Source of the DNA: Enterococcus faecium
Lineage (GTDB): Bacteria; Bacillota; Bacilli; Lactobacillales; Enterococcaceae
Direction of reading: 5' to 3'
Assembly: GCF_029023785.1 (NCBI RefSeq)
Contig: NZ_CP118955.1
Location: 1,548,501-1,612,500, forward strand
Length of the DNA: 64,000 bases
A program made the position numbers and the translations under genes. The notes beneath the pieces were generated by a model that did not search any database, was not told the origin of the DNA, and saw only the letters and a list, made by a program, of their open reading frames with translations. Positions 43,414 to 47,060 of this stretch are shown piece after piece; within the stretch, counting starts at the first letter, position 1, and each line of letters opens with the position of its first letter.

Positions 43414-45260
<1,847 letters not shown>

Positions 45261-45261
45261 T

Positions 45262-46308
45262 TCAATTCCCTCTTATCTCACTGACGATTTGTTGAAATAC
45301 CGTCATTGTTCTCAATAATTCTTTTTCGTTTGGATGTTGGTATCCGTCTATTATACCTATTTTTTCTAAAACAAGTATTTTTTTGCTTTTTTCTGCCAAA
45401 AAAAGAACTTTTTCCAAATACTCCATCTTTGAAATCTGTTCCAGCCAGTGGATTGGATAGCCAAGCAAGTCCAGCCACACAAAAAAGTTTTTTAGTTGGA
45501 AATCAAAAGGATATGCTTGGAGATTCCACACGAAATGAAACATCATTCCTAAAAATTTTTTCATACTAGCAGAAAGTAGATGGCCATTTTCGGTCAGATA
45601 AAAAGCTTGTTCAAACAGTTTACCATAATTTGACAGGTTTTCTGCCTCTAATTGATAAAAATAGATCATTTCTTCGATCATCCCGGCAAACGGCCGAGTC
45701 GTTAATTGCTTTTTATTTGGATAGTTTTTATACAGATTTTGCAAAAAACGATGATCACAAATCATTCCGCAACAGATAAAAGTCAAAAAGTCAATCTGCT
45801 TTCCGTCCACCTGCCGCTCGCTGATTGTTTGATCATAAACGATGCGTTCTGGCAGATTGATGGTTTGCAGCACTACACGATTTGGTAGCTGCAAAATCGT
45901 CCGCTGCGGTGTTAATGCTCGGCTTAGAGAACGGATCGATACAGGGATCATCCATAGTGATGAATCAAGGGTTGTATGTTTTTGAAAAAAACCTGCCAGA
46001 TCCATGATCCCTTCATTTCCAAATCCGATGATAAACATGGATTGATTTTCGGGATAGCGTTTGACGAAATCAAGCAGGTTCTTTAATTCTGTTAAATGAT
46101 TGCATTGAGTGTTGGCACAAATATACCAGTCATTGTTTGCTTGATTTGCAAATAACGGGTTGATCTTATCTGCAAACAAATCATAATAGCGCTGATTCGT
46201 TAAAAATAAGATTGGCTGATCAATGGAAAGTTCTCTTAGCTGACTGACTAGCGTTTCTCCGTAAAACACTTTCGTCAACGCATCTTCTACTTGATAATCA
46301 AGTTCCAT
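45262..46308 (-). CDS. Degenerate 3-dehydroquinate synthase (AroB)-like protein
   Basis: The 348-residue length is that of AroB, and the fold can be traced: MFIIGFGNEGIMDLAGFF replaces the GGGVIGDLAGF motif; IPVSIRSLSRALTPQRTIL takes the place of PTTLLAQVDSSVGGKT; and ENLSNYGKLFEQAF takes the place of LNFGHTFGHAIE, with both zinc-binding His changed (to Lys and Gln). The catalytic Glu region (usually AEVIK) reads FICCGMI. The protein should not make dehydroquinate. The intact frame, good ribosome site (GGAGGG, 7 nt before ATG 46308) and coupling to ypiA suggest it is still used, perhaps as a structural or regulatory protein. Confidence 0.6.
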   Translation of the reverse strand: MELDYQVEDALTKVFYGETLVSQLRELSIDQPILFLTNQRYYDLFADKINPLFANQANNDWYICANTQCNHLTELKNLLDFVKRYPENQSMFIIGFGNEGIMDLAGFFQKHTTLDSSLWMIPVSIRSLSRALTPQRTILQLPNRVVLQTINLPERIVYDQTISERQVDGKQIDFLTFICCGMICDHRFLQNLYKNYPNKKQLTTRPFAGMIEEMIYFYQLEAENLSNYGKLFEQAFYLTENGHLLSASMKKFLGMMFHFVWNLQAYPFDFQLKNFFVWLDLLGYPIHWLEQISKMEYLEKVLFLAEKSKKILVLEKIGIIDGYQHPNEKELLRTMTVFQQIVSEIRGN

Positions 46309-46497
46309 ACGCATCCCTCCTCTTCTTATTTTTATTTTACCATTAGTAAGCAAATTCTAGAAAAGATAAGAGCAAAGCTCACCTCATAACTTGGAAATAA
46401 ATAAAAATTAAATAAAATACATGTGTTTTCTATGTATGACATACGGATTCGGAATCTCTGTCTCTTATTTATTCCTTTTCTGCTAGGAAATAAAAAG

Positions 46498-46536
46498 AAA
46501 AGCACTTGTAGCCCTAGAGCCACAAGCGCTTTTTCA
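46498..46536 (-). terminator. Terminator after the HU gene
   Basis: On the minus strand AAAAAGCGCTTGTGG pairs with CTACAAGTGCTTTTC, giving a hairpin with a T-run directly after the stop at 46543. Confidence 0.8.
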
Positions 46537-46542
46537 ACTGTC

Positions 46543-46818
46543 TTATTTAACAGCGTCTTTTAATGCTTTACCTGGTTTGAATGCAGGTACTTTGCTAGCT
46601 GGAATTTCGATTTCTTCACCAGTTTGTGGGTTACGACCTTTGCGAGCTGCGCGTTCGCGAACTTCAAAGTTACCAAAACCGATTAATTGAACTTTTTCGC
46701 CGTTAGCTAAAGCATCTTGAATAGTTGAAAATACAGCATCTACTGCTGCAGTTGCATCTTTTTTAGTTAAATCAGTAGCTGAAGCAACTTTTTCGATTAA
46801 TTCTGCTTTGTTTGCCAT
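46543..46818 (-). CDS. hup: HU family DNA-binding protein
   Basis: The 91-residue histone-like protein bends and compacts DNA. It has [13 protein letters not shown] at the start, the helical dimer core, and the DNA-wrapping arm [39 protein letters not shown] with Pro at its tip. ATG at 46818 follows GGAGGTGA. It is a single-gene unit with its own promoter region (46819-47060) and terminator, as expected for a highly expressed gene. Confidence 0.98.
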
Positions 46819-47060
46819 GGATAGATTCACCTCCTCCACAAGAGATATGATAGAAATATCATTTAGTTAAAACTTTCTGAGTGGTCCAGAAGTTTAAAAA
46901 GAAATATTGATTAACTTCAATATTCTGTTATCACGATATCATATGAACCGCTTAATAGCAAGGTTTTTACCAATTTTCACATGCTTTTTTTAGTCATAGA
47001 AACGTAACAAACGAAACTGTCTTTTTCTTTTGAAAAAAAAACGTCGATATGGTAAAATGC

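Follow-up and report, generated by a model that had tools for sequence, protein, structure and literature searches.

A dehydroquinate synthase pseudo-enzyme maintained beside ypiA and reoY in Enterococcaceae, and its probable descent in place from an ancestral aroB

What keeps in place a gene that resembles aroB and lacks nearly everything that makes AroB an enzyme? The question is raised by a gene of Enterococcus faecium, here called aroBx, in a 64,000-nucleotide stretch of the genome (NCBI RefSeq assembly GCF_029023785.1, contig NZ_CP118955.1, positions 1,548,501 to 1,612,500; hereafter “the window”). A reading made from the letters of the window alone (“the sequence-only reading”) had described its product, AroBx, as a protein with the fold of AroB, i.e., 3-dehydroquinate synthase (DHQS), devoid of catalytic and zinc-binding residues, and as a relic of an aromatic operon that was kept and reused. 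The coordinates given there are correct (Table 1) and the strand, then left unstated, is the minus strand; the open reading frame (ORF) begins with ATG, its translation is 97% identical to a protein of Enterococcus lactis (L046), and the diagnostic segments are all found in it as quoted (GFGNEG, PVSIRSLSRALTPQRT and YGKLFEQ, with the Glu of AEVIK absent). As detailed below, AroBx represents a family of DHQS pseudo-enzymes that has been maintained where the ancestral aroB stood, in that it combines homology to an enzyme and loss of the catalytic residues with an intact gene under selection.

When searched as a single sequence, AroBx hardly reveals its ancestry: it matches the aroB model TIGR01357 at E=0.0052 with 16 bits (cut-off 305), it has no Pfam match below E=0.18, and no DHQS was found among the PDB chains. 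A hydrolase identity, to which these searches pointed (Lipase_2 in Pfam at E=0.18 and five esterase or hydrolase chains in the PDB, with E of 1.1–1.7), was dropped, since both profile and fold indicate DHQS. A profile built from 38 relatives of AroBx matches solved DHQS structures (1xag at E=1e-9), the five best matches being all DHQS (the fifth at E=0.045), while 13 of the 38 members individually match TIGR01357 at E≤0.1 (best 7e-7). Structure prediction also returned DHQS, so that, as far as the model goes, AroBx has the DHQS fold; the AroB fold claimed by the sequence-only reading, against which the lack of a profile or fold match would have spoken, thus agrees with both. Protein searches yielded 76 relatives, and 102 when the profile was used; the organisms named were all Enterococcus or Tetragenococcus, as were those of the 46 AroBx loci in the genome collection, and some UniRef names read “3-dehydroquinate synthase domain-containing”. 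Across 395 sampled genomes of the order, AroBx was matched in 67 of the 71 Enterococcaceae (family f1) and also in ten genomes of a second family (f8) and three of a third (f2).

The extent of the catalytic loss was assessed by counting retained residues in 38 Enterococcaceae AroBx at the near-invariant columns of AroB. For this alignment, AroB ORFs were read from a single strand, and 31 of the 59 loci yielded one. Two of these ORFs (L140 and L156) appear to be incorrect, and of the three syntenic AroB genes of family f7 (see below) two are present in duplicate, so that most AroB counts reach no higher than 32 of 34. Only 10 of the 61 near-invariant columns, occupied by G, L, F, P and D, are retained by at least half of the AroBx sequences. 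For the three zinc ligands, which we take to be Glu, His and His (E184, H247 and H264 in the numbering of L095), the AroB residue at the respective column occurs in 0, 1 and 0 of the 38 sequences and in 1, 0 and 0 of 17 others, AroBx of the window having T, K and A instead. The GGG nucleotide loop and the Lys/Asn/Arg columns, presumably the active-site residues of DHQS, are no better preserved: G105 and G106 are retained in none of the 38, and neither are K77, N152, K322 and R240, the last being deleted along with about nine residues around it, while K142 and K187 persist in 4 each, K151 in 5 and K323 in 12. These counts bear out the loss of catalytic and zinc residues; from them, AroBx is almost certainly dead as a DHQS, having most likely kept the fold without the residues that zinc and substrate require.

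AroBx nevertheless possesses invariant residues of its own (N38, Q39, Y41, Y42, N66, N70, E74, G97, G100, D159, D173, S246, K250 and others), and several near-invariant AroB positions carry a different, near-invariant residue in AroBx (D44→N and K77→N in 38 of 38, G105→N in 37, G106→E in 36, G181→D in 38). Such replacements would be expected if AroBx were a small-molecule sensor or a new enzyme, whose rebuilt NAD and substrate cleft (N38, N70, N98, E99, D173, K250) binds a nucleotide-like or sugar-phosphate ligand. We consider this rather unlikely, though worth keeping in mind: the swapped columns are not significantly commoner at former AroB-invariant positions than elsewhere (8/46 vs. 29/290, p=0.135), and most of the residues are not kept in f8 and f2 (of all 55 AroBx, 46 have N70 and 42 have E99).

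Whether the gene is retained or merely fading can be read from its substitutions and from the state of its frame. The ratio of nonsynonymous to synonymous substitutions (dN/dS, NG86 method) is 0.03–0.20 in the nine AroBx pairs with dS below 1; among the other nine (18 pairs in total), eight yield 0.05–0.10 at a dS too high for trust, and one has no defined value. These values, which overlap the range of the neighbouring genes cca and mazG, lie far below 1 and indicate purifying selection. An ordinary pseudogene in decay might find some comfort in the two broken frames among the 67 Enterococcaceae genomes with a match (G104 and G242), in the faster evolution of AroBx (mean distance 0.75, vs. 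0.38 for YpiA and 0.53 for ReoY) and in the lineages without AroBx; yet 65 of the 67 frames are open, the dN/dS is nowhere near 1 and the gene is found in three families of the order, so that this explanation can hardly hold. Fourteen further Enterococcaceae rows flagged with one inner stop were read as a normal gene end, which was checked for four of them (L074–L076 and L097). The frequent frameshifts in other strains that would have marked a merely decaying gene are thus not seen, and AroBx has very probably been retained for a function of the protein. As for the statement that the relic was “kept and reused”, the keeping follows from selection, while the reuse is only deduced from it. Two of the broken copies can be described: in Enterococcus faecalis 13-SD-W-01, AroBx is split into two overlapping ORFs (L014 6001-7060), and in G242 it has an inner TAG (C1:2941792-2942834).

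The genomic position of aroBx suggests where it came from. In the sample of the order, 33 further matches belong to a single family, f7, taken as Listeriaceae from the aro operon at the locus. In three of its genomes (G007, G062 and G085), the match is the sole TIGR01357 match and a true AroB (353–372 bits), and the gene stands between HU and YpiA–ReoY, the order in L094 being chorismate synthase, aroB, hisC, prephenate dehydrogenase, aroA, YpiA and ReoY. A true aroB occupies the same slot between HU and YpiA in 5 of 20 other stretches of the class (L158, L160, L161, L169 and L174, no ReoY being called in L161), YpiA lying outside the fetched stretch of about 20 kb in the other 15. A profile of 55 AroBx was then scored against AroB sequences from 59 loci, now taken from both strands (L140, still in a wrong frame with 0 bits, is left out of the ranges). 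The three f7 sequences score 113–128 bits and the five AroB from the HU–YpiA slot 61–83, those with HU alone in reach 96 (L165) and 40 (L159), other AroB of the class 35–82, five AroB of family f3 36–40, and the 26 working AroB of f1, f2 and f8 only 17–53, that of the window's own genome reaching 38.

A maximum-likelihood tree of 57 chosen rows (14 of the 55 AroBx, 13 of the 26 working AroB of f1/f2/f8, three of the five f3, nine syntenic, among them L165, whose stretch includes HU and lacks YpiA, and 18 others) recovers AroBx as one clade (100/100), whose point of attachment (93/66) lies between two syntenic AroB groups. The working AroB of Lactobacillales form a separate clade (100/100) far from it. 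The deepest AroBx branch is L084 of family f2 (next fork 83/42), which is also the least eroded member, scoring 75.8 bits to TIGR01357 and retaining PTT, GG and N at AroB positions. In the approximately unbiased (AU) test, for which the groups were defined after the profile scores and the tree were known, placing AroBx with the f7 AroB is not rejected (p=0.45). A point against descent in place is that grouping AroBx with the working AroB is itself only borderline rejected (p=0.0445); long branches and a skewed composition call for caution here. Overall, synteny and profile scores agree with the proposed origin from aroB of a Bacillus-like operon, and the tree does so less firmly; judged by sequence and gene order, there is a high probability that AroBx descends from the syntenic aroB of the ancestral Bacilli aro operon.

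Several loci without AroBx show what else the slot can hold. In an f2 genome (G119, L192 6099-8673), chorismate synthase and aroA stand between HU and YpiA with no aroB, which is another remnant of the ancestral aro operon. In three Enterococcaceae genomes of genus g6 (L177, L178 and L179), AroBx is absent and other genes fill the slot (two ORFs of about 561 aa, one of 158 aa, and ORFs of about 335 aa and 418 aa), those tested in L178 being acetolactate synthase, ilvC and ilvA. In family f8, a similar hydrophobic, Gly-rich ORF of about 80–90 aa follows HU in L083 (5098-5503) and L180 (2873-3268); since it precedes AroBx in the former and directly precedes YpiA in the latter, AroBx appears to have been cleanly deleted in the lineage of L180. 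A search for remains of AroBx in nine HU–YpiA intervals without it and in one HU–AroBx interval gave nothing beyond chance (best 6.2 bits, E=0.033, over 19 residues).

If AroBx no longer makes dehydroquinate, another enzyme should. The sequence-only reading had suggested looking for a second, intact aroB, and there is indeed a full-scoring one in the genome of the window, about 510 kb from aroBx. A TIGR01357 match above the cut-off occurs in 80 of 80 AroBx genomes, but this co-occurrence says little, because nearly all genomes of the class have aroB (150 of 151 with a match). Given synteny and the AroBx profile scores, the native aroB would have been retired in place, while aroB of another lineage most likely makes dehydroquinate in AroBx genomes; another aro operon may have taken over this synthesis in the ancestors of these Lactobacillales. 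As DHQS is a dimer, AroBx might instead pair with the working AroB and regulate it, an idea in keeping with the invariable presence of the latter. We regard it as improbable, given the near-universality of aroB just mentioned, the distant lineages of the two proteins, and the separation of their genes in the window's genome, with no common operon. In genus g5, 19 of 20 genomes have the working aroB on the AroBx contig, at a distance of only 8.5 to 11 kb (e.g., G252 C1:495252-507466), the exception being G391, where it is on another contig; in G287 the distance is likewise 8.6 kb. Possibly, the new aro operon inserted next to the former aroB site. The different lineage of the working aroB, the occurrence of the family in f8 and f2, and the identity of the neighbour as ReoY all go beyond the sequence-only reading.

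The constant companions of AroBx are YpiA, a TPR protein whose name we take from synteny with B. subtilis, and ReoY. AroBx adjoins YpiA on the same strand in 62 of 62 loci, with gaps of -77 to +22 (measured from the first possible start codon, so that negative values can reflect the choice of start), and ReoY is present in 80 of 80 AroBx genomes; AroBx is thus a constant member of an operon with both. The distance from HU, in contrast, varies between 103 and 4713 (44 loci with HU in reach) and exceeds 1 kb in 11 of these loci. The contig-end fragment L047 was excluded from the counts, and the better piece of the broken L014 was used for the gaps. In the window, a single base separates the TGA that ends aroBx from the ATG of ypiA; the intact frame, the good ribosome site and the coupling to ypiA stated by the sequence-only reading are all visible in the sequence and in the comparison of loci. 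A terminator-like hairpin precedes the unit (Table 1), four hairpins of such kind occurring in the 4-kb region vs. 2.2 expected, and no sigma-70-like site is listed between it and the aroBx start.

Table 1. Features of the aroBx locus, in positions of the window
Feature	Position	Strand	Remarks
reoY (ypiB)	43414..44004	minus	196 aa; NF002965 “ReoY family proteolytic degradation factor”, 190 bits (cut-off 182); UPF0302 + IDEAL
ypiA	44001..45260	minus	TPR protein, 419 aa; TPR_19 E=4.2e-26
aroBx	45262..46308	minus	348-aa protein; predicted DHQS fold, catalytic residues lost
ypiA Shine-Dalgarno AAGAGGG	45268..45274	minus	Within the final aroBx codons; translational coupling; read from sequence
aroBx Shine-Dalgarno AGGAGGG	46315..46321	minus	Six bases ahead of the start; read from sequence
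Terminator-like hairpin behind HU	46498..46533	minus	16 pairs; separates HU from the aroBx-ypiA-reoY unit
HU gene	46543..46839	minus	PF00216; borders the ancestral aro-operon slot on the left; an inner ATG is probably the true start

At face value, such an arrangement could mean that the frame is kept open solely for the sake of the ypiA ribosome site, which lies inside aroBx at a fixed spacing between the two genes, the protein itself being idle. This is very improbable, as the whole protein is under purifying selection with the DHQS fold kept, and as YpiA occurs without AroBx in many genomes. The simplest reading of the operon is instead a non-enzymatic partner of YpiA: the two-domain shell, with its own invariant residues, would serve binding or sensing, its partner would be the translationally coupled YpiA, and the two might act in a YpiA–ReoY module that aids the degradation by ClpCP of MurA, the first enzyme of peptidoglycan synthesis and the proposed target of the module, AroBx being a stabilising or ligand-sensing subunit.

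Published work documents the ReoY side of this scheme. Listeria mutants without clpC, reoM or reoY are reported to show no MurA degradation, and loss of the reoM or reoY homologue in B. subtilis to raise MurAA 12-fold or more (PMC7286690); in two-hybrid assays, ReoY interacts with ReoM, ClpC and ClpP (PMC8959180). In E. faecalis, the ReoY homologue is reported to be OG1RF_11272, an ireK suppressor (PMC7286690, citing Banla 2018), and unphosphorylated IreB to direct MurAA to ClpCP (PMC12077105); OG1RF_11274 carries the annotation of a nucleotide pyrophosphohydrolase (PMC11100838). By gene order, AroBx of E. faecalis would be near OG1RF_11270; among the open-licence PMC papers listed by the searches made, we found none on aroBx or on that tag, and no described DHQS pseudo-enzyme.

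The comparative evidence on this role is mixed. In genus g6, which lost AroBx, the identity of YpiA to the Listeria-type sequence is 30.3% (three loci) vs. 38.0% (33.8–40.3; 49 loci with AroBx), with no such drop for ReoY (31.1 vs. 31.9); this comparison after loss covers YpiA and ReoY, RpsA and Der having no usable outgroup genes. Several observations weigh on the other side. The f8 genome G016 also lost AroBx and its YpiA shows no drop (36.8 vs. a mean of 36.1), YpiA of f2 is alike with and without AroBx (41.3 vs. 40.4), and the mirror-tree comparison (31 loci, the broken L014 excluded) is best for the control Cca (partial 0.64), ahead of ReoY (0.41) and YpiA (0.23). Moreover, 148 of 228 genomes have ReoY and no AroBx, so that the YpiA–ReoY module does not need AroBx in general, and the adjacency of AroBx and YpiA is in part inherited from the old operon.

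Taken as a whole, an in-place descendant of aroB whose shell was kept as a non-enzymatic surface, with YpiA of the YpiA–ReoY module as its partner, is a reading that we put forward tentatively, at somewhat less than even confidence; that AroBx functions through YpiA or ReoY is possible, and slightly more doubtful still. Going further, the retired aroB could have become a subunit of YpiA–ReoY–ClpCP that sets MurA levels, possibly by sensing a metabolite common to both pathways, which we offer as an unlikely, speculative extension. In this respect, the gene directly before YpiA–ReoY in L094 (10081-11367), L160 (10718-12004) and L192 (7330-8673) is aroA (EPSP synthase), which matches the murA model (E=2e-28 to 3e-32); aroA, to judge by such matches, is a homologue of MurA beside the genes of MurA turnover. 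Because it precedes ypiA-reoY in the old operon, a link between the two phosphoenolpyruvate-using branches could predate the exaptation.

Beyond its function, AroBx offers a traceable natural case in which the chemistry of an enzyme was lost and its fold and genomic place were kept, with the stages still visible: the true enzyme at the same site in Listeria-type genomes, the less eroded L084, and another lineage that supplies the activity. It is also a conserved protein in the operon of ReoY, a peptidoglycan-control factor, of enterococci including clinical species, and if the module reading is true, MurA turnover has a further, lineage-specific partner.

Compared with AroB itself (TIGR01357; 1xag, 1xai, 5hvn), AroBx shares the fold at 13–16% identity, but lacks the zinc ligands, the active-site Lys/Asn/Arg and the Gly loop, and it scores far below the model cut-off. 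The other sugar-phosphate cyclases (2-deoxy-scyllo-inosose synthase 2gru, ValA 4p53 and desmethyl-4-deoxygadusol synthase 5tpr) are NAD- and metal-bound enzymes according to their entry titles; AroBx is without the corresponding residues, and its sequence profile picks up nothing but DHQS. To the glycerol and iron-type alcohol dehydrogenases (GldA 1jq5), AroBx is clearly less similar than to DHQS. With the YpiA–ReoY module of MurA proteolysis, it shares one conserved operon and no sequence relation, the functional link being inferred. Finally, like pseudo-enzymes in general, AroBx has lost its residues, kept its fold and remained under selection.
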